The notes beneath the pieces were generated by a model that saw only the letters and a list, made by a program, of their open reading frames with translations, did no database searches and was not told where the DNA came from. From positions 1-57,108 of the forward strand of contig CAINRS010000124.1 in assembly GCA_903852755.1 (NCBI GenBank): a stretch of DNA of 57,108 nt. Direction: 5' to 3'. The DNA is from an uncultured Actinomycetes bacterium (GTDB taxonomy: Bacteria; Actinomycetota; Acidimicrobiia; Acidimicrobiales; Microtrichaceae). The position numbers and the translations under genes were made by a program. The stretch's first letter is position 1; every line of letters starts with the position of its first letter. This document shows, in pieces, positions 6,658 through 51,700 of this stretch.

Positions 6658-8852
6658 GCCGGCCGGGCCGCCGCCCTGCGCGGATCCTCCCCGGAGTGGT
6701 CGTGGCAGTGGTCGTGGCAACGGTCGTGGCAGTGGTCGTGACACCGGTCGACGGTCCCGCCCCGCACCCCGGGGGCGACGGAGCTCGGGCGGACGCCCCG
6801 GTGGCGCTCGGACTGCAGCGCACGGTCGCCCGTCAGTCCGGTGCACCCGGGGCGGTCGACCTGCGACTGGCCTTCGTCTCCCCGTCGGTTCCGCCCACGG
6901 GGACCTTCGAACTGCGATTCGAACCGACCGCTGACATCCCCCGGGGATCGGTGCTCGAGGTGCGCTTCCACCGACAGATCACCAACCGTTCGCAACTGCG
7001 CGAACGCGTCGCCGCCATCGCCGACGGCGGATCCCCGGGGGGGACGGTGCGCCCGCCGGTCCGGGTCCCCGACGGCCTGCTCGGCAATCCGCTCGCCGGC
7101 TGGCGCCTCGAGCTCCGGGTCACCGACGTCGACCAGGGCGGCGACGAGATCGTGCTCCCGGACGACGGTATCGTCCCGGTGTCCCTGGACCTCGTCGACG
7201 CCGCCGGCGCACCACTGTGGGAACAGACCGTGTTCATGGTCCGGCCCCCGGCGGACCGGCCGCTGGGACGTGACGGTCGGCCGGCCGAGTTCGCCGTCAC
7301 TGCGGCGCTCGCGCTCGACGCCGATCCGACCATCGACCTCGACGGGACGTCGACCCTGGACGAGGAGCTCCTCGGTCGGGTCGACCAGGTCGCCGACCTC
7401 CTGGCGGCCGTTCCCGAGTTCCCGTTCTCCCTGGCGCTCGAGCCCAACCTGCTCTCCGGGCTCGACCGGTCGGGCACCCGGTCCGCCACGGCGCTGTCCG
7501 AGGCCGTGCAGCAGCCGGGGCTCCGGGGCCGGAGCCTCCGGCGACCGGACGTACCGGTCGACACCGGCGGCATCATCCGGGCCAACGGCCTCGACGTGCT
7601 CGAGGAACTGCTCCAGACGGGCGAACAGGTCGTCGAGGAGGCGACCCTGCGTGCACCCGTCGACTCGACGTGGCTGCTCGACGAGACCGTGGACCCCGAG
7701 TCGCTCCCCGCCCTCGAGAGCCTGGGCGTGCGGCGGGTGGTGCTGCCCGCCGAGCGGATCGAGCGACCCGGTGACGTCGACGACGACGCCGCCCGGTGGC
7801 GGACGATGGCCCTGGCGGACAGCGCCACCGTCACCGGCGACGACCCGACGCTCACCCCGCTGACCGTCATCGCCGACGACCCGATCCTGTCCCTCCTGTC
7901 GCTCGATGCGTCGATCAGCCCCGGTGTGGCGGCCAACCGGATCTCCACCGAACTCGCCGCCGAGTGGTTCACCGCCGTGGACGCCGACACCGACGCGTTC
8001 CCCGGACCGCAGACGTTCATGTTCGTGCCACCACAGGTCGACCCGGCGCTCCTGCTGGCACTCGGTCCGGCACTCGACGGCACCGGGGTGCTCCGCGCCG
8101 ACCCGGCCGCCGATCCGCCCCCGGCGGCCCCCATCGACGGCGAGGTCGCCGTGGCGACCGTGGCGGACCGGGACCCCGCCCCGCAGGAGGCCGCGATCGC
8201 CGAGTACCGCTCGACGCAACGACTCATCGGTGGCGTGCGCAGCATCGTGGGGCTCGCCGAACCCGACGTCACCACCTGGTCGTTGCTCAACAGCCAGAGC
8301 ATGTCGGTCGCCGTCCCGGAACCCGAGCGGGCCGCCACCCACACCTCGATCGCCGAGCAGGCCCGGGCCCTGCTCGACGGGATCCAGGGCCCCGCCGACA
8401 GCTCGGTGGTCGTCGGCAACTCGCAGGCGACGATCCCGCTGCGCTTCACGAACTCGCTGCCGTACCCGGTCGACGTCGAGCTGCGGATCCGGAGCAACCG
8501 GGTCGAGGTCCGGGGCGGTGACCGACAACGGTTGCGACTCGAACCCGGCGACACACCGGTCGAACTCGCCGTCGAGGTCCGCGCCGGTGGTGTGTCGACC
8601 GTGCGGTACGACCTGACCTCTCCCGACGGCACCGTCGGGATCACCTCGTTCACGACCGAGGTCCGGGCCACCCGGTTCTCCGGGGTCGGGGCCGGACTGT
8701 CGATCCTCTCCCTCGTGGTGCTCGCCTGGTGGTGGATCTCGACGGCACTGCGCCGCCGGCGGCAGTCGGCCCGTGCGGCCGGACACCACCCGAGCGAATC
8801 GGTGACGAGTGCCGGGTCCGGCGTGGACGGTAGCGTCACCCCGCGTGGATGA
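6654..8852 (+). CDS. DUF6049 family membrane-anchored envelope protein
   Basis: A 732-residue protein of the DUF6049 family, the position of Rv3909 in mycobacteria between the cca region and murJ/sigM. An N-terminal Val/Ala-rich hydrophobic segment (about residues 12-29) follows an Arg-rich start and acts as signal or anchor. The long middle part is extracellular and acidic, with beta-rich segments. A second membrane helix near residues 680-705 (LSILSLVVLAWWWIS) is followed by an Arg-rich cytoplasmic tail. GTG at 6654 overlaps the GNAT stop. The GTG of the kinase gene at 8845 lies just before this gene's TGA, an 8-bp overlap. The function is unknown. Conserved context ties it to cell-envelope assembly. 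Confidence 0.8.
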   Translation: MSRPGRRPARILPGVVVAVVVATVVAVVVTPVDGPAPHPGGDGARADAPVALGLQRTVARQSGAPGAVDLRLAFVSPSVPPTGTFELRFEPTADIPRGSVLEVRFHRQITNRSQLRERVAAIADGGSPGGTVRPPVRVPDGLLGNPLAGWRLELRVTDVDQGGDEIVLPDDGIVPVSLDLVDAAGAPLWEQTVFMVRPPADRPLGRDGRPAEFAVTAALALDADPTIDLDGTSTLDEELLGRVDQVADLLAAVPEFPFSLALEPNLLSGLDRSGTRSATALSEAVQQPGLRGRSLRRPDVPVDTGGIIRANGLDVLEELLQTGEQVVEEATLRAPVDSTWLLDETVDPESLPALESLGVRRVVLPAERIERPGDVDDDAARWRTMALADSATVTGDDPTLTPLTVIADDPILSLLSLDASISPGVAANRISTELAAEWFTAVDADTDAFPGPQTFMFVPPQVDPALLLALGPALDGTGVLRADPAADPPPAAPIDGEVAVATVADRDPAPQEAAIAEYRSTQRLIGGVRSIVGLAEPDVTTWSLLNSQSMSVAVPEPERAATHTSIAEQARALLDGIQGPADSSVVVGNSQATIPLRFTNSLPYPVDVELRIRSNRVEVRGGDRQRLRLEPGDTPVELAVEVRAGGVSTVRYDLTSPDGTVGITSFTTEVRATRFSGVGAGLSILSLVVLAWWWISTALRRRRQSARAAGHHPSESVTSAGSGVDGSVTPRG

Positions 8853-10407
8853 GACGCAGGTCGGCGACAGCGGCAACGTGCCGATCGTGTCGTCCTCGGC
8901 CGGTCTGTCCGGTCTCGTCCTCGGCAGCCGGTACCGCCTGGACCGGCTCATCGGCTCCGGCGGAATGGCCCAGGTCTGGGAGGGCACCGACACGCTCCTG
9001 TCCCGCAAGGTGGCCGTGAAGCTCCTCCACCCGCACCTGGCGACGGACGAGCGGTTCGTGCAGCGGTTCCGCCAGGAGGCCCTGGCGACCGCCAGCATCA
9101 ACGACCCGGGAGTCGTGGGGATCTTCGACACCCACAGCGATCCCGAGCACGAGGCCATCATCATGGAGCTGCTCGAGGCCACGACCCTGCGCGACCTCCT
9201 CGACCAACGTCGGACGCTCGACGCTGCGACGACCGAACGGATCGGACTCCGGGTGCTCGACGCGCTCGAGGCCGCGCACCGGGTCCGGATCGTCCACCGG
9301 GACATCAAGCCGTCCAACATCCTCGTGTGCGACGACGGTCGCGTGAAGTTGATCGACTTCGGCATCGCGCGCGCCGAGGACCACACCGAGCTGACCCAGG
9401 AGGGGTCGCTCATCGGGACGGCGTCGTACCTCTCCCCCGAGCAGGTGCGCACCGGGAAGGCCGAGTCCCGGTCGGACCTCTACTCGCTGGGCGTGGTGCT
9501 GTACGAGTGCATCACCGGCCGGACCCCGTTCGCCGGGGACTCGGCGGCGACCGTGGCGCTGGCGCGACTGCACTCCGCCCCCCTCGATCCTCGTCAGGTC
9601 CGGGCCGACGTCCCACCACACCTGGCACAGGTGGTCATGACCGCGATGGCCGTGGAACCCGCCGCCAGGTTCGCCACCGCGGCGGACTTCCGGGCAGCGC
9701 TCATGGGCGGGAGCATCCACGTGCCCGGTCCGCCGACCGGGTTCGAGTCGGGGGACGTGCTCGGTGGTGCCGAGGAGGCCCCGGAGTCGTTCTCCCGCTC
9801 CGAACGAGGGTGGCTCCTCCCGGCCCTGCTCATCCTGATCGTCGCGGCAGCCGTGACCGTCGCCGGTCTCCTCGTCAACGAGACCCGGTCCGTCGAGGAC
9901 GGTTCCGTTCCTGCGACCGCCGCCCCCGCCGAGGAACCCGGAGCGCTCGCCGTCGCCCGGGTCGCCACGTTCGACCCCCAGGGCAGCGGTACCAAGGGGG
10001 AGAACGACGACGAGGCCGGACTCGCCGCCGACGGGGATCCTGGAACCGGCTGGAGGACCGAGCTCTACGACGAGCCCACGTTCTTCGGCTCCAAGACGGG
10101 TGTGGGTGTGGCGCTGGTCCTCGAGTCGCGATCCGAGGTGGACCGGGTGCGGATCGTCTCGAGCGACAACGGCTGGAGCGGCGCGGTCTACGTCATCGAC
10201 GCCGACGTCGACGACTCGGTCGACCTCGGGCAGATCGAACCAGCGGCCGTCGTGGACGACGTCCGCGGGACGGTCGAGGTCTCCACGGACGGGGCGACCG
10301 GTCGGGTCGTCCTGTTGTGGATCACCTCGCTCGGCGACGCCGATGGGAGCGGGCACCGGGTGGAGATCGACGAGCTGGGCGCCGCCGGCCGACCGGCCCA
10401 GGGCTGA
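8845..10407 (+). CDS. Membrane Ser/Thr protein kinase with extracellular discoidin-like domain
   Basis: A 520-residue PknB-type kinase. The glycine loop IGSGGMAQV is at 37-45, the ATP-binding Lys in VAVKLL (K59), HRDIKPSN at 151-158 (catalytic D153), DFG at 171-173 and the activation-segment end SPEQ at 197-200. All catalytic residues are present, so it should be active. One transmembrane helix lies at about 323-344. Outside is no PASTA repeat but a beta-rich domain at about 366-512 (GDPGTGWRTE, LESRSEVDRVRIVSS, RVEIDELG) resembling discoidin/carbohydrate-binding folds. This architecture equals the C-terminal half of mycobacterial MviN/Rv3910 without its MurJ part. An alternative GTG lies at 8809. 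Likely it senses envelope or muropeptide ligands. Confidence 0.88.
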   Translation: MDETQVGDSGNVPIVSSSAGLSGLVLGSRYRLDRLIGSGGMAQVWEGTDTLLSRKVAVKLLHPHLATDERFVQRFRQEALATASINDPGVVGIFDTHSDPEHEAIIMELLEATTLRDLLDQRRTLDAATTERIGLRVLDALEAAHRVRIVHRDIKPSNILVCDDGRVKLIDFGIARAEDHTELTQEGSLIGTASYLSPEQVRTGKAESRSDLYSLGVVLYECITGRTPFAGDSAATVALARLHSAPLDPRQVRADVPPHLAQVVMTAMAVEPAARFATAADFRAALMGGSIHVPGPPTGFESGDVLGGAEEAPESFSRSERGWLLPALLILIVAAAVTVAGLLVNETRSVEDGSVPATAAPAEEPGALAVARVATFDPQGSGTKGENDDEAGLAADGDPGTGWRTELYDEPTFFGSKTGVGVALVLESRSEVDRVRIVSSDNGWSGAVYVIDADVDDSVDLGQIEPAAVVDDVRGTVEVSTDGATGRVVLLWITSLGDADGSGHRVEIDELGAAGRPAQG

Positions 10408-10417
10408 GGATCGCACG

Positions 10418-11101
10418 GTGGGCCGAACGCGACGTTCCACGCTGCGTCGACTCGACGAGGCCACGCTGATCGAACGGGCCCGATCGGGGGACGGTTGGGC
10501 GGCGGACGAACTCCTCCGCCGGTACGAACCGCAGGTCCGCAGCGTGTGTCGCCGCATCTGTCGGTCCCACCACGACGCCGAGGACGCCGCCCAGGACACG
10601 CTGGCCTCCATCAACGTGGGACTGCGCTCGTTCGACGGCCGTTCCGCGCTCGGCACCTGGGTCAACCGCATCGCCACCAACCGGGCGCTCGACGAACTCC
10701 GACGGCGCCACCGCCGCCCCGAGCCGGTGGGCGGCGACGAGCACGTGGTGAGCGACCAGCACCGGTCCGACGGGCCGTCCCCCGACGAGCCCGAACCGGC
10801 GGTCATCGGCGGTGAGACCCGGTCCGAACTCGCCACGGCACTCGCAGCGCTGCCCGACCTGCTCGCCGAGGCGGTCGCCCTCCGCGACGTCGCCGACCTG
10901 GACTACGCGACGATCGCCGAGGAGCTCGGCGTCCCGGTCGGCACCGTCAGGTCCCGCATCTCCCGGGGCCGGGCACAGCTCGCCGACCACCTCCGGGCCA
11001 CCCCCGGATGGAACCGGTCGCCCGGGACGGACGTCCAAGCATCGGGCCGGTCCGGCGCCGACCACCACACACCCGAGACCAGGATGCACCCGACCCCATG
11101 A
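10418..11101 (+). CDS. ECF-type RNA polymerase sigma factor (SigM position)
   Basis: A 227-residue sigma-70 family factor of ECF type. Region 2 spans about residues 25-90 (ELLRRYEPQVRSV, DAEDAAQDTL, ALGTWVNRIATNRALDELR). Region 4 lies at about 140-190 (DYATIAEELGVPVGTVRSRI). A Gly/Pro/Asp-rich linker joins them, and the C-terminal 35 residues are a non-conserved tail. The start is GTG at 10418, 10 bp after the kinase stop. The stop overlaps the ATG of the anti-sigma gene (ATGA at 11098-11101). Its position between the kinase/MurJ slot and trxB matches sigM of mycobacteria, which regulates thiol or envelope stress genes. Specific regulon membership is inference. Confidence 0.88.
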   Translation: MGRTRRSTLRRLDEATLIERARSGDGWAADELLRRYEPQVRSVCRRICRSHHDAEDAAQDTLASINVGLRSFDGRSALGTWVNRIATNRALDELRRRHRRPEPVGGDEHVVSDQHRSDGPSPDEPEPAVIGGETRSELATALAALPDLLAEAVALRDVADLDYATIAEELGVPVGTVRSRISRGRAQLADHLRATPGWNRSPGTDVQASGRSGADHHTPETRMHPTP

Positions 11102-12431: not shown

Positions 12432-13400
12432 ATGAGCACATCCGACGACGTCCGCAACGTCACCATCATCGGATCGGGTCCGGGCGGCCTGACCGCTGCC
12501 ATCTACACGGCGAGGGCGACGCTCGAACCCCTCGTCATCGAGGGGGAGCCCTCGTCGACGAGCGACCAGCCCGGTGGTCAGCTGATGCTGACCACCGACG
12601 TCGAGAACTTCCCCGGGTTCCCCGACGGCATCACGGGTCCCGAACTGATGGCAGGGTTCCGGGCCCAGGCCGTCCGGTTCGGGGCCGAGATCCTGACGGC
12701 CAAGGTCAGCAGGGTCGACCTCACGACCTGGCCGTTCGAGCTGTGGGTCGGGACGACCGACGGTGACCCCACCTACCGGTCACGGTCCGTGATCGTGGCG
12801 ACCGGTGCCTCGTCGCTCATGCTGGGCCTCCCGGCGGAACAACGGCTGCTCGGCCACGGTCTGTCGACGTGCGCGACCTGCGACGGGTTCTTCTTCCGGG
12901 ACCAGGACATCTGCGTCGTCGGCGGCGGCGACTCGGCGCTCGAGGAGGCCCTCTTCCTCTCCCGGTTCGCCCGCACCGTCACGGTGATCCACCGCCGGGA
13001 CACGCTCCGTGCGTCCAAGATCATGCAGGCCCGGGCCTTCGACAACCCGAAGATCGAGTTCCTGTGGAACACCGTGGTGGCCGACCTTCTCGGCGAGGAG
13101 CGGCTCACCGCCGTCATCACCGCCGACGTCGCGACCGGGGAACAGACCACCCGGCCGTTCACGGGGATCTTCGTGGCCATTGGTCACCGCCCCAACACGG
13201 GGCTGTTCGCCGGTCAGCTGGAGCTCCACGACAACGGGTACCTGCGGACCTTCGACGACCGGTCGCACACCAGTGTCGAAGGTGTCTTCGCATGCGGGGA
13301 CGTCCAGGACGACTGGTACCGGCAGGCGATCACCGCGGCCGGCAGCGGGTGCATGGCTGCGATCGACGCCGAACGGTGGCTCGAGGCCAAGGGACACTGA
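12432..13400 (+). CDS. trxB: Thioredoxin-disulfide reductase
   Basis: A 322-residue FAD enzyme that passes electrons from NADPH to thioredoxin. The FAD-binding GSGPGGLTAA motif is near 14-23. The redox pair CATC is at 147-150 followed by DGFFF, the NADPH motif GGGDSALEEA at 164-173, and the second FAD motif (VEGVFACGDV) near 285. The length is normal. ATG at 12432 is preceded by GAGGTGAGCG, a good ribosome binding site. The gene is followed 106 bp later by thioredoxin, so the pair forms the complete cytosolic thiol-reducing system downstream of the sigma/anti-sigma pair. Confidence 0.97.
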   Translation: MSTSDDVRNVTIIGSGPGGLTAAIYTARATLEPLVIEGEPSSTSDQPGGQLMLTTDVENFPGFPDGITGPELMAGFRAQAVRFGAEILTAKVSRVDLTTWPFELWVGTTDGDPTYRSRSVIVATGASSLMLGLPAEQRLLGHGLSTCATCDGFFFRDQDICVVGGGDSALEEALFLSRFARTVTVIHRRDTLRASKIMQARAFDNPKIEFLWNTVVADLLGEERLTAVITADVATGEQTTRPFTGIFVAIGHRPNTGLFAGQLELHDNGYLRTFDDRSHTSVEGVFACGDVQDDWYRQAITAAGSGCMAAIDAERWLEAKGH

Positions 13401-13506: not shown

Positions 13507-13827
13507 ATGGGTGTGATCGAACTCACGGATGCGACCTGGGACGAAGAGGTGAAGGGCTCCGACGTGCCCGTGCTGATCGACTTCTGGGCGCCGTGGTGCG
13601 GGCCGTGCCGGATGATCGCCCCGATCCTCGAGGACCTCGCCGAGGAACACGGTGACGCCCTCAAGGTGGGCAAGCTCAACGTCGACGAGCACTCGGAACG
13701 AGCACGATCGTTCAATGTGACCAGTATCCCTTTCTGCATCGTTGTGAAAGATGGGGAGGTCGTCGCCGAGATGACGGGCGCCCACCCCAGGAGCAAGTTC
13801 GACGAGGTGCTCGCCCAGATCCTCTGA
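13507..13827 (+). CDS. trxA: Thioredoxin
   Basis: A 106-residue canonical thioredoxin. The active site is WCGPC at residues 30-34, with the cis-proline loop SIPF near 76-79. The length equals the family norm. ATG at 13507 follows a GAGAGAGG ribosome binding site. Unusually the residue after the cis-Pro loop is cysteine (IPFCIVV), giving a third Cys near the active site. It is the partner of the adjacent trxB, and the order trxB-trxA-cwlM is as in mycobacteria. Confidence 0.97.
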   Translation: MGVIELTDATWDEEVKGSDVPVLIDFWAPWCGPCRMIAPILEDLAEEHGDALKVGKLNVDEHSERARSFNVTSIPFCIVVKDGEVVAEMTGAHPRSKFDEVLAQIL

Positions 13828-13876: not shown

Positions 13877-14905
13877 GTGGACCTCTCCCACCTCCCGCTG
13901 CGACACGGTGCGACCGGGCAACCGGTCGAGGATCTCCAGCGCATGCTCCGAGCCCAGGGCTGCTACGACGGGGCGATTGACGGCGTGCTCGGTGACGAGA
14001 CCCGTTCGGCCGTCACAGCGTTCCAGTACCGGCACCCGGACCTCGAGGTCACCGGATCGTGCGACCGGGCGACGTGGATCCGACTCGCGGACACGGACCG
14101 ACCCTTCGTCGACGAGCAGGACCGGTCCCGGGAACGGCTGCTGTACCTGCAGTGGCCGATGCTCCAGGGCGTCGACGTCGAGGAGCTCCAGCTGCGTCTG
14201 AGTGTGCTCGGCTTCCACCCGGGGAGGATCGACGGGATCTTCGGGCCCGGCACCGCAGACGCCGTCGGCAGGTTCCAGCGCAACACCGGCATCATCGAGG
14301 ACTCCGTCTGCGGACCCGACACCCGGAGCATGCTCGTCGACCTGTCGCACCGCCAGTCCCGGGCTCCCGACTCCGGGGACCACCAGCTGACGGTGAGCGC
14401 CGTGATCGAAGGTGAACTCCTGCGCTGCGCGCCTCCGGCCGACCAGGTGTTCGCGCTCGGCGCTGACCCCGACGACCGGGTCCTCGGCACCTCGGTTCAC
14501 CGGGCGCTCGAGGAGCTCGGCCGAACGGTGCACCTGATCGCCGGACCCGCCGAGGAGCAGGCAACCCGCTGCAACGACCTGGGAGTCCGGGCGTTCGTCC
14601 ACCTCGCGACGACCGACTCGGCCGAAGTCACGATCGCCTTCTACGGCCGGCCGGACGGCTCCCACCACTCGCTCGGTGGACGCCTCCTCGCCACCTCGCT
14701 CTCGGAGCGCATCGGATCAGCCGTCGACGACGTCACGGTGACGACGCTGGCCCGGCAGTCGGTGCGACTGACGCAGACCCGGTGCCCGGCGGTCGAGGTC
14801 GAGCTCCCCCGCGCGGTGCACGACCGGATCGACGGCAGCCACCTCGCAGCGGGGATCGAGGAGTGGCTGACGTCGACCGAGGTCGACGAACCGCAATCCT
14901 CCTGA
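13877..14905 (+). CDS. CwlM-like peptidoglycan-binding protein with degenerate amidase domain
   Basis: A 342-residue cytoplasmic protein (no signal peptide) in the cwlM slot. Two PG_binding_1 repeats lie at about 8-75 (GATGQPVEDLQRMLRAQGCY, DETRSAVTAFQ) and 95-155 (DVEELQLRLSVLGF, GTADAVGRFQ). The remaining 170 residues resemble Amidase_3 (LARQSVRLTQTRCPAVEVEL aligns with the usual TRMPAVLVELGF segment). However, the first zinc motif (DPGHGG) is absent and the usual IHAN segment reads FVHLATT. Catalysis is therefore doubtful, consistent with the regulatory role known for mycobacterial CwlM, which is phosphorylated by PknB and stimulates MurA. The start is GTG at 13877. Confidence 0.75.
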   Translation: MDLSHLPLRHGATGQPVEDLQRMLRAQGCYDGAIDGVLGDETRSAVTAFQYRHPDLEVTGSCDRATWIRLADTDRPFVDEQDRSRERLLYLQWPMLQGVDVEELQLRLSVLGFHPGRIDGIFGPGTADAVGRFQRNTGIIEDSVCGPDTRSMLVDLSHRQSRAPDSGDHQLTVSAVIEGELLRCAPPADQVFALGADPDDRVLGTSVHRALEELGRTVHLIAGPAEEQATRCNDLGVRAFVHLATTDSAEVTIAFYGRPDGSHHSLGGRLLATSLSERIGSAVDDVTVTTLARQSVRLTQTRCPAVEVELPRAVHDRIDGSHLAAGIEEWLTSTEVDEPQSS

Positions 14906-49167: not shown

Positions 49168-50427
49168 TCAGGGGAGCGCGTCGATCTCGAGCGTGATCAG
49201 GTCCGAGCCCGGGACGACGCCGACGCTCCTCGGCACCACCAGGACGGAGTGCACGCCCGACTCGGTGGCGGTGAAGGTCACCCACGGGTCCGGATCGAAG
49301 GGAGGCCCCTCGTCCACCACCCCCTCCAGGATCGAACCGTTCGGCGAGCGGACCGTCACGCCGGGCTTGACGCCGGGCGGGTCGAACGTGCGGATCCGGA
49401 ACCGTCCGCCGGCGTCGGCGACCACGCCAGCGGCGGCGGCCTGCCCGGGGAGCCGACCCGGCGTCGGGTAGGACCCCTCCTCGAGCACACCGAGGTCGAG
49501 GGTCTCGCTGAGCCAGACGAACGCGCCGCTGCTGTTGTTGGAGCCCCTGACCACCACCTGGTACGTGCCGGCGTCGGTGAAGGTGTAGCGAGTCCGGGGG
49601 AGGATCTCGGTCGGGTCGAACACGGTCTCGTCGGCGTTGCGGAGCTGCACGCCGACGTTGAACGTCGAGCTGAGCCCGATGGTCTCGCCGGCGGTCGCCG
49701 TGTACAGCAGCGACACGTGCTGGCCGGGGAGCAGGGTCGGCACGCTGGTGGGTCCCAGGTCCACGGGCACGGCCGGGAGGTCGTTGCTCAGGGTGGCCCC
49801 GGTCTGGGTCACCTCGATCCGGTAGTTCCCGGTGACGGGGAGCGTCACCTGACTGGTCCGCCGACCGTTCGGAGGGACGCTGGTGCCGTCGGGTGCGACG
49901 ACGTCGTCGACCAGGAACCGGTTCAGGTGCTCACCGGCGGTTCCGGCGTAGGTGTAGGTGACCGCCTGACCGGGGATGAGCGAGCCGATGGGCGCGATCG
50001 GTCCGAGCCCCGTCGCACCGCGGTCCTGGTCCTGGCTCACCGCCAGGGTGTAGGTCAGGACACCCAGGTCGGCCGACGGGTACCGGAGCGCGACCGAGTA
50101 GCGGCCGGTCACGGGGAGTTCGTAGATCCGGGTCGTGCCGCGTGTGGACGCCACCGGGACGACCGCACCGCCCGGTGCGATCAGGTCGAGCCTCGGCGGG
50201 TCCAGGTTCGGGTTGAAGAACGGTCGGTTGTCGTAGAGCAGCAGGTTGACGGTCTGGCCGGCGACGCCGTCGTAGCCGTAGGTGACGGGCGAGTTCAGGA
50301 CGGAGTACTCGCCCGAGTACGAGCCCTGCGTGACGGTGGTTCCGCCGGAGGGTGCGGCGCAGCCGGTCAGGACGGCGGCGGCGGTCGCGAGGACGACGAT
50401 GGCGGCTGCGGTCAGTCGGGTCTGCAC
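49168..50427 (-). CDS. Multi-domain lipoprotein with four beta-sandwich modules (paralogue A)
   Basis: A 419-residue lipoprotein with lipobox C23 (VLTGC). The mature part is four tandem beta modules of about 95 residues, opening with NSPVTYGYDGVAGQ, IPGQAVTYTYAGTAGE, LPGQHVSLLYTATAGE and LPGQAAAAGVVADAGG, resembling the bacterial pre-peptidase C-terminal (PPC) fold. GTG at 50427. It is paralogous to the next gene upstream, with a shared N terminus (CAAPSGGTTVTQG), and lies 25 bp after it. The role is unknown, likely adhesion or carbohydrate binding. Confidence 0.72.
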   Translation of the reverse strand: MQTRLTAAAIVVLATAAAVLTGCAAPSGGTTVTQGSYSGEYSVLNSPVTYGYDGVAGQTVNLLLYDNRPFFNPNLDPPRLDLIAPGGAVVPVASTRGTTRIYELPVTGRYSVALRYPSADLGVLTYTLAVSQDQDRGATGLGPIAPIGSLIPGQAVTYTYAGTAGEHLNRFLVDDVVAPDGTSVPPNGRRTSQVTLPVTGNYRIEVTQTGATLSNDLPAVPVDLGPTSVPTLLPGQHVSLLYTATAGETIGLSSTFNVGVQLRNADETVFDPTEILPRTRYTFTDAGTYQVVVRGSNNSSGAFVWLSETLDLGVLEEGSYPTPGRLPGQAAAAGVVADAGGRFRIRTFDPPGVKPGVTVRSPNGSILEGVVDEGPPFDPDPWVTFTATESGVHSVLVVPRSVGVVPGSDLITLEIDALP

Positions 50428-50452: not shown

Positions 50453-51700
50453 TCAGGGGAGGTCGTCGAGTTCGACGGTGATCGGTCCGTCCCCGGGGCT
50501 CTCGGTGGGGACGACCAGGACGGTGTGCTCACCGGATTCGGCGGGGGAGTAGGTGGTCCACGGGTCGCTCGGACCCGACTCCGTGACACCCGTCAGGGTC
50601 AGACCGGTCGGCCCGGTCACGAAGATCCGGGGCTTGACGCCCGGGGGGTCGAAGGTGCGGACGCGGAACGCCCCGCCGGAGGGCCTCGCGTGGCGCAGGA
50701 CGACGGACTGGCCGGGCACCCGGGACGGCGTGGCGAACGACCCCTCGCCGACTGCGCCCAGCTCCAGGTCGTGGCTGAACCACAGCGCCGAGGCGGCCGG
50801 CGTCCCGAACGTCTGGCCGGTGGCGACCACCCGGTAGGTGGCGGTCGCCGGGAGCACGAACCGGCTCCCCCGACTCGACGGCGTGGGCGACAGTGGCGTC
50901 CAGTCCGCCCGGCCGACGGCCAGCTCGAGGTCGTAGGCGGTCGTGCCGACCCCGAGCGCCTCACCGACGGTGCCGGCGTACAGCACGTCGACGTGCTGGC
51001 CCCGCTGCAGGGGTGGCAGGTCCACTCGGCCGAGCGACGCTGCGATCGGCGGGAGGTCGTTGCTCAGGACGGCGACGCTGTTGGTGGCCACGATCCGGTA
51101 GTCCCCGGTGACCGGCAGCGTCACCTGCGCCGATCGCAGCCCGTTGTCGCCGAGGCGGGTCCCGTCGGGAGCCACGACCCGGGCGACCTGGTAGCGGTTG
51201 AGCTGCTCGCCGGCGGTCCCGGCGTAGTGGTAGGTCACCTCCTGGCCGATGAACACCGACCCGAGCGGTCCGAGGTCGGTGGGCCCCCGGTCCTCGTCAC
51301 GACTGACCACCAGCGAGAACCGCTGCACCTTGGTGTCGGCGTTCGGGTACAGGAGGCGGATCGAGTAGCGGCCCGTCGTCGGCAGGATGAACCGATCGGT
51401 GGCGCCGTCGCGCTGCTCGATCGGTGCCACCACGCCGCCGCCGGGAGCGACGAGCTCCAGTCGTCGCTGCGTCTCGGCGAAGGAGAGTCCGTAGAAGAGG
51501 TTGAGGTCCTGTCCGGCCACACCGTCGTAGCCGTAGGTCACGGGCGAGTTCAGGACCGAGATCTCGCCGCCGTAGTAGCCCTGGGTGACGGTCGTGCCGC
51601 CCGATGGTGCGGCGCACGCGGTCAGGAGGGCGGCGAGCATCGACGCGACGGCCAGGACCGCTGTGCTGCGGGCGATCGCCCGTCGACCGGCGTGTGCCAC
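50453..51700 (-). CDS. Multi-domain lipoprotein with four beta-sandwich modules (paralogue B)
   Basis: A 415-residue lipoprotein with lipobox C29 (LLTAC). It has the same four-module plan as its neighbour (VNSPVTYGYDGVAG-like start, FIGQEVTYHYAGTAGE, LQRGQHVDVLYAGTVGE, VPGQSVVLRHARPSGG). GTG at 51700 has AGGAGG 6 bp upstream. Sequence identity with paralogue A is moderate, so the duplication is old. It precedes paralogue A by 25 bp and they are probably one operon. Confidence 0.72.
   Translation of the reverse strand: MAHAGRRAIARSTAVLAVASMLAALLTACAAPSGGTTVTQGYYGGEISVLNSPVTYGYDGVAGQDLNLFYGLSFAETQRRLELVAPGGGVVAPIEQRDGATDRFILPTTGRYSIRLLYPNADTKVQRFSLVVSRDEDRGPTDLGPLGSVFIGQEVTYHYAGTAGEQLNRYQVARVVAPDGTRLGDNGLRSAQVTLPVTGDYRIVATNSVAVLSNDLPPIAASLGRVDLPPLQRGQHVDVLYAGTVGEALGVGTTAYDLELAVGRADWTPLSPTPSSRGSRFVLPATATYRVVATGQTFGTPAASALWFSHDLELGAVGEGSFATPSRVPGQSVVLRHARPSGGAFRVRTFDPPGVKPRIFVTGPTGLTLTGVTESGPSDPWTTYSPAESGEHTVLVVPTESPGDGPITVELDDLP

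Follow-up and report, generated by a model that had tools for sequence, protein, structure and literature searches.

A predicted MviN-type receptor kinase with complete catalytic motifs, encoded apart from MurJ in an uncultured member of the Microtrichaceae

Introduction

The pseudokinase of mycobacterial MviN (Rv3910), which is fused to MurJ, is a known regulator of peptidoglycan synthesis. Passages of PMC6180346 describe how, in M. tuberculosis, PknB phosphorylates MviN, which then binds FhaA, and how the MurJ linker is bound by unphosphorylated CwlM. The MviN pseudokinase (PDB 3OUN, 3UQC, 3OTV) belongs to ActPs3, a group that passages of a 2025 review (PMC12599244) describe as consisting entirely of pseudokinases and whose other members are said there to be without the carbohydrate-binding domain of M. 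tuberculosis MviN. The review also describes MviN as dimerizing back to back, with constraints in the family at the dimer face, and an excerpt of PMC3601408 has the active form of PknB stabilized by N-lobe dimerization. Here we describe a gene for a predicted Ser/Thr kinase of the receptor type (8845..10407, forward strand) in a 57,108-nucleotide contig (CAINRS010000124.1, hereafter the window) from an uncultured bacterium of the Microtrichaceae (Acidimicrobiales). The kinase resembles MviN in its slot between a DUF6049 gene and a gene for an extracytoplasmic function (ECF) sigma factor, in its kinase fold, transmembrane helix and outer domain of a carbohydrate-binding type, and in the positions of residues R29, L52 and D95. 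It differs from MviN in being encoded by a separate gene, in having complete catalytic motifs and an activation-loop threonine, and in that MurJ is found elsewhere in the genome.

The figure legend (S6 Fig) of PMC10166564 notes that in Actinobacteria those mviN orthologues that lack the extension often have a "protein kinase family protein" downstream of them, and this is very probably the same gene as the kinase described here. Passages of that paper also state that only organisms with arabinogalactan seem to have the extended MviN pseudokinase domain; they do not say whether the separate kinase is catalytically intact, nor do they mention a relocation of MurJ, and both matters are treated below. 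An unfused kinase downstream of mviN is already in print, and what appears to be new is the full set of catalytic motifs in this class, the wide distribution of the outer domain, and the relocation of MurJ. Our literature search returned no report of catalytically complete MviN-type kinases, which is weak evidence given that most subscription papers were outside its reach, and it returned nothing on an outer domain common to most of the family or on a move of MurJ to proB-obg in one lineage.

Results and Discussion

The slot kinase has complete catalytic motifs and a carbohydrate-binding-type outer domain

The open reading frame at 8845..10407 encodes 520 amino acids, in which Pfam, motif inspection and an AlphaFold2 model delimit a kinase domain (approximately residues 29-290), a transmembrane helix (321-348) and an extracellular sandwich of the CBM32 type (approximately 370-517). 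The Pfam Pkinase match covers residues 30-242 (E=1.2e-44). A reading of the DNA made from the sequence alone had proposed a kinase-transmembrane-discoidin-like protein with complete catalytic motifs between DUF6049 and the ECF sigma gene, with no MurJ, and our analysis bears this out. The VAVK, HRDIKPSN, DFG and SPE motifs are all intact, so the degraded VAIK/HRD/DFG condition of the MviN/ActPs3 type is not seen here, and the Pfam assignments of the neighboring genes leave no MurJ in the window's slot.

The AlphaFold2 model of the full protein (mean predicted local distance difference test score, pLDDT, 86.2; predicted template modeling score, pTM, 0.62) shows the kinase domain, the helix and the beta-sandwich, and the sandwich modeled by itself reaches a pLDDT of 91.7. 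By structural comparison, the modeled sandwich is of the CBM32/discoidin type. It aligns with PDB entry 4zy9 with a Z score of 15.2 and a root-mean-square deviation of 2.3 Å over 128 residues, and it matches chitosan-binding modules and other CBM32 modules at a Z score of about 15. The match of the outer domain at the sequence level, to PF24607, is weak (E=0.0022) and falls under that family's cut-off.

Among known systems, the PknB-type PASTA receptor kinases are close to the window kinase. PknB and PknA are the top PDB relatives of the kinase domain, the receptor layout is the same, and a threonine occupies the matching place in the activation loop. Unlike them, the window kinase carries the CBM32-like sandwich, and a Pfam scan found no PASTA repeats in it. 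The candidate identification of the slot kinase as the genome's PASTA PknB was rejected, since the PASTA kinase is another gene, located in a RodA-PBP-type cluster (PBP, penicillin-binding protein). A contig search with the window kinase returned two loci, a near relative with 83% identity in the metagenome-assembled genome LaPlata-5m-b_bin-394 and a short partial match from an unrelated phylum.

Orthology of the slot kinase with the sensor region of MviN

We built a hidden Markov model of the outer domain from class members only. It matches 65 of 74 slot kinases, including that of the mycobacterial-type locus L106 (E=9e-26) and those of four Streptomyces-like loci (E between 1e-32 and 6e-16), and none of the 37 non-slot kinase rows in the same set, two of which (L011 and L014) are pieces of one gene. 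The label "mycobacterial-type" (family f59) comes from a PDB match, and the label "Streptomyces-like" (family f54) is inferred. The kinase region of L106 matches the solved MviN pseudokinase with E=1.3e-127 for 3oun and about 1e-127 for 3uqc and 3otv. In a kinase-domain tree of 109 rows, the five rows nearest to the window kinase are slot kinases of its own order, and the window kinase belongs to a starred group of 17 rows made up entirely of slot kinases. Because the slot, the domain order and the extracellular domain are the same, we conclude from these comparisons that the window kinase is orthologous to the (pseudo)kinase-transmembrane-carbohydrate-binding part of mycobacterial MviN/Rv3910, as the sequence-only reading had suggested.

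Several observations weigh against this conclusion. The slot kinases do not form strictly one clade (two label changes), although a single clade is not rejected by the approximately unbiased (AU) test (p=0.467), and several pseudokinase branches in the tree are very long. The outgroup of this tree is partial: six genomes gave 79 kinase matches, of which 30 are represented by loci, and kinases from the window's own genome complete the set. No outer domain is seen in 9 of the 74 slot kinases; three of these (L018, L041, L053) are cut by contig ends, and the other six (L019, L021, L029, L034, L055, L057) are not. A placement of the window kinase among unrelated Ser/Thr kinases, which would have refuted the sequence-only reading, did not appear, and strict monophyly of the slot kinases was not recovered.

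MurJ has moved out of the slot, and the kinase has stayed

To compare gene order, we searched for DUF6049 in 148 genomes of the class, of which 68 (the window's own included) have a match, and in 198 genomes of the phylum, of which 95 have one. We examined the regions of 60 among the 67 other matching class genomes and those of 40 genomes from elsewhere in the phylum, with genes labeled by iterated profiles. Seven further class loci bring the total to 68 class loci including the window, of which 60 are complete from DUF6049 to TrxB; 27 of the other phylum loci are complete. The order is not class-wide, as 80 of the 148 class genomes have no DUF6049 match, and in the 18 MurJ loci inspected from genomes of this kind, labeling found no other gene from the early part of the slot.

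Among the 60 complete class loci, the slot contains MurJ in 40, DegV (a neighbor of 278 amino acids; Pfam E=2.1e-76) in 53 and the kinase in 38, and the fullest order in class loci is DUF6049-MurJ-DegV-kinase-sigma-TrxB-TrxA-CwlM. The slot of families f2, f4 and f9 is without MurJ and keeps DegV and the kinase; that of f1, the window's family, is without both MurJ and DegV; and that of f7 is without MurJ and the kinase. DegV was not found anywhere in the window's genome, which is 96.5% complete. In the window, the end of the DUF6049 gene and the predicted start of the kinase gene overlap by 8 bases (8845..8852, forward strand), which, judging from gene order in relatives, would be the place, now closed, that MurJ and DegV once occupied. 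Outside the window's order, the slot is likewise without MurJ in f15, f18, f45, f74 and f69 (L097), and on the marker tree this label shows four changes.

The kinase is a gene of its own in every slot locus examined that has it, with the exception of the mycobacterial-type locus L106, where MurJ and the kinase are fused in a frame of 1243 amino acids, the only such frame among all loci labeled. Gene order suggests that the fusion is derived, seen as it is only in the mycobacterial-type locus. In two other loci, DUF6049 and MurJ lie in one open frame that looks like a fusion (L058:6278-10108, 1277 amino acids; L088:8242-13005, 1588 amino acids).

The window's genome contains two MurJ genes, both outside the slot. 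One (on contig C163; predicted 598 amino acids, with MurJ as its sole Pfam match) adjoins proB-, obg- and PspA-type genes. The other (on C165) follows SteA-like and MctB/SteB-type genes and belongs to a separate paralogue clade in the MurJ tree. At L004:7228-12036, a second MurJ paralogue comes after SteA-like and MctB/SteB-type genes and ahead of a gene that, judged by sequence alone, resembles a glycosyltransferase; the order SteA-SteB-MurJ is also found in L168, L169, L170, L174, L175 and L177.

A MurJ-less slot is found in 19 genomes of the window's order, its own included, and the main MurJ lies beside proB-obg in 18 of the 18 looked at (G019 was left out). The same placement is found in two f2 genomes, G071 and G091, whose slot region was not covered. 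A quick tree of MurJ with 128 rows nests 19 of the 20 proB-linked MurJs in a starred clade of 64 rows with 45 operon MurJs of the class, apart from the SteB-linked paralogue and from the MurJ of other classes. The exception, from f7 (L123), is divergent and unlike the operon type, and the slot of its genome is without the kinase. In f1, f2, f4 and f9, the proB-linked MurJ is thus placed by the tree as a descendant of the operon MurJ. In the marker tree, which was built from proteins of the same loci (quick, LG+G4; limited to the 87 loci in which 250 or more positions were filled), f1, f2, f4, f7 and f9 fall in one clade (starred, 97). On the basis of synteny and this tree, we favor a single relocation of MurJ in the window's lineage, comprising these five families.

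The MurJ trees themselves weigh against a single event: the proB-linked copies do not form one clade in either of them. They show four label changes in the 128-row tree; in a second tree there are two, with one clade recovered in 0% of bootstraps, although the AU test does not reject their monophyly (p=0.097). This second tree has 61 rows, 18 of them proB-linked; L123, L055, L057 and seven near-duplicates (one proB-linked) were omitted and five phylum rows were added.

These results bear on the possibilities first raised for the locus. Loss of MurJ from the genome was ruled out by the two MurJ genes found in the genome search, neither of which has a kinase domain in Pfam, and a MurJ carrying its own pseudokinase was not seen in this genome. 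The sequence-only reading had offered a derived fusion and a lost or moved MurJ as alternatives; the evidence favors both a derived fusion and a moved MurJ, and not a lost one. Its proposal that a kinase takes the place of MurJ does not hold, as the fullest class order has both, and replacement of MurJ by the kinase was ruled out by gene order in relatives. The kinase is, as gene order suggests, an ancestral neighbor that stayed when MurJ, and here also DegV, left the slot.

It could be argued instead that an unrelated kinase of the PknA/PknB type was recruited after MurJ left, so that its likeness to Rv3910 would be positional only. The top PDB scores of the kinase domain, to PknA and PknB, and the weak tree support for one clade of slot kinases would fit such an event. 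However, of the 38 complete class loci that have the kinase, 19 retain MurJ in the slot, and therefore the kinase does not depend on the absence of MurJ; moreover, the common extracellular domain is restricted to slot proteins within the set searched, and the tree gives the window kinase, as its five nearest rows, slot kinases from its own order. We regard recruitment of an unrelated kinase as very improbable.

Probable repeated loss of catalytic residues, with a predicted dimer face retained

We scored catalytic completeness on the Lys, the HRD Asp, the Asn and the DFG Asp. By this measure, 55 of the 74 slot kinases are complete and 19 are degenerate. The degenerate ones come from the Streptomyces-like and mycobacterial-type loci, from f63, f66, f49, f46, f43, f42, f17 and f33, and from single members of f60 and f72; the degree of degeneration is uneven, and in five (L083, L085, L088, L099, L113) the HRD Asp alone is replaced. 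Within the window's class, L055, L057 and L067 (f17 and f33) have badly degraded slot kinases. The catalytic state changes about six times on the marker tree, and four independent pairs lie on branches with support. Since the direction of change cannot be read from the tree itself, we take these changes as probable losses of catalysis on the ground that the compared kinases elsewhere in these genomes are mostly live.

Degenerate kinases occur in 0 of 25 MurJ-less slots and in 18 of 40 slots with MurJ. This difference is significant in a plain Fisher test (p=3e-5) and not significant once relatedness is allowed for, there being too few informative pairs. With so few independent pairs on the tree, we do not claim that loss of catalysis and a neighboring MurJ are connected.

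Residues R29, L52 and D95 are invariant in all 55 rows of alignment A1 (45 complete, 10 degenerate). By our own mapping on a PDB alignment, they correspond to R10, L33 and D76 of PknB, which we take to be residues of the PknB back-to-back dimer. The activation-loop threonine, Thr184 in the window kinase, is kept in 45 of the 45 complete rows and in 1 of the 10 degenerate rows (L099).

Such a pattern raises the question of whether the gene, though intact, might be redundant, with PknB doing the signaling and the slot kinase serving mainly as a dimerizing scaffold even where its motifs are complete. That R29, L52 and D95 remain invariant where catalytic residues have repeatedly been lost is compatible with this idea, as is the failure to detect the kinase in 22 of the 60 complete class loci. 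On the other hand, the catalytic residues and the activation-loop threonine are fixed together in every complete row, an indication of selection for catalysis; rows were scored as complete by the catalytic residues and not by the threonine. Taken together, the evidence makes a mainly structural role for the kinases with complete motifs decidedly unlikely.

A proposed role in wall-glycan sensing

The comparisons point most likely to a wall-glycan receptor kinase that is a live cousin of the known pseudokinase. We propose that the outer CBM32-like domain would bind cell-wall glycan or a lipid-linked sugar, that the kinase domains would pair through the conserved N-lobe face, and that Thr184 in the activation loop would be autophosphorylated. 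The active kinase might then signal to wall-synthesis partners, for which FhaA-type FHA proteins, the CwlM-like protein and MurJ in trans are candidates. Elsewhere in the phylum, catalysis would have been lost several times to leave dimerizing scaffolds, and in mycobacteria such a scaffold would have become fused to MurJ and is itself, as published for MviN, phosphorylated by PknB. According to Pfam, one cluster in the window's own genome contains the PASTA kinase, an FhaA_N+FHA protein, a second FHA protein, a PP2C phosphatase, an FtsW/RodA-type protein and a PBP transpeptidase. As a whole, we consider it probable that the gene encodes an MviN-orthologous receptor kinase, separate from a MurJ that moved out, which senses wall glycan and signals to partners in wall synthesis.

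For glycan binding by the outer domain, the indication is its modeled fold. A point against the explanation is that the kinase and CwlM show no excess co-occurrence: among complete class loci, CwlM is detected in 34 of the 38 that have the kinase and in 22 of the 22 that do not. The suggestion of the sequence-only reading that the kinase could regulate the CwlM-like protein or lipid II flux thus gains no support from co-occurrence.

In an alternative reading unconnected with MurJ, the kinase would serve the neighboring ECF sigma factor, phosphorylating it or its anti-sigma factor and so switching an envelope-stress regulon. The two genes are adjacent and co-directional in the window and occur together more often than expected in complete class loci (both in 28, kinase only in 10, sigma only in 9, neither in 13; Fisher p=0.015, a test that ignores kinship), and both are present in 25 of the 27 complete loci from the rest of the phylum. 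Yet one occurs without the other in 19 of the 60 complete class loci, a count that may be inflated by sigma genes missed by the profile, and the mycobacterial orthologue keeps its place beside sigma without catalytic motifs. Overall, we find this sigma-directed role unlikely.

A broader and more speculative view can be put forward. Slot kinases may constitute an unrecognized, phylum-wide family of wall-glycan receptor kinases, working in parallel with the PASTA kinases and exerting direct control over MurJ. The MviN pseudokinase would then be one of several independent deaths of such a receptor, retained since MurJ needed its dimerization and ligand sensing and did not need its catalysis. We offer this extension tentatively and consider it doubtful.

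Live orthologues with the same outer domain provide a natural comparison for the mycobacterial pseudokinase; they suggest what the former role of the dead kinase may have been and hint at its descent. The dimer face and the sugar-binding-type domain are pointed to as the parts under lasting selection, and a live enzyme offers substrates that can be mapped, and with them partners in the pathway.

Neighboring genes and other observations in the window

Upstream of the kinase gene lies the DUF6049 gene (6708..8852; PF19516, E=2.5e-12), and downstream lies the ECF sigma factor gene (10427..11101; Sigma70_r2 and Sigma70_r4_2); the start of each is uncertain. An open reading frame without a Pfam match and then a small one with a sub-threshold holin match separate the sigma gene from that of a thioredoxin reductase (12432..13400; Pyr_redox_2), which is taken as TrxB by its likeness to the syntenic gene of relatives and, with a thioredoxin gene assigned by Pfam (13507..13827), served as a marker of the locus. 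The gene for the CwlM-like protein follows (13877..14905), all of these being on the forward strand, and beyond it are ParB/ParA-type genes on the opposite strand. The CwlM-like protein has two PG_binding_1 stretches and no Amidase_3 match, as does that of a class relative (L020:11113-12417); the protein of the mycobacterial-type locus (L106:10841-12145) has Amidase_3. Elsewhere in the window, two adjacent genes on the same strand (49168-50427 and 50453-51640) have very similar starts, with a lipoprotein-like signal followed by a common motif, and are perhaps a tandem duplicate.

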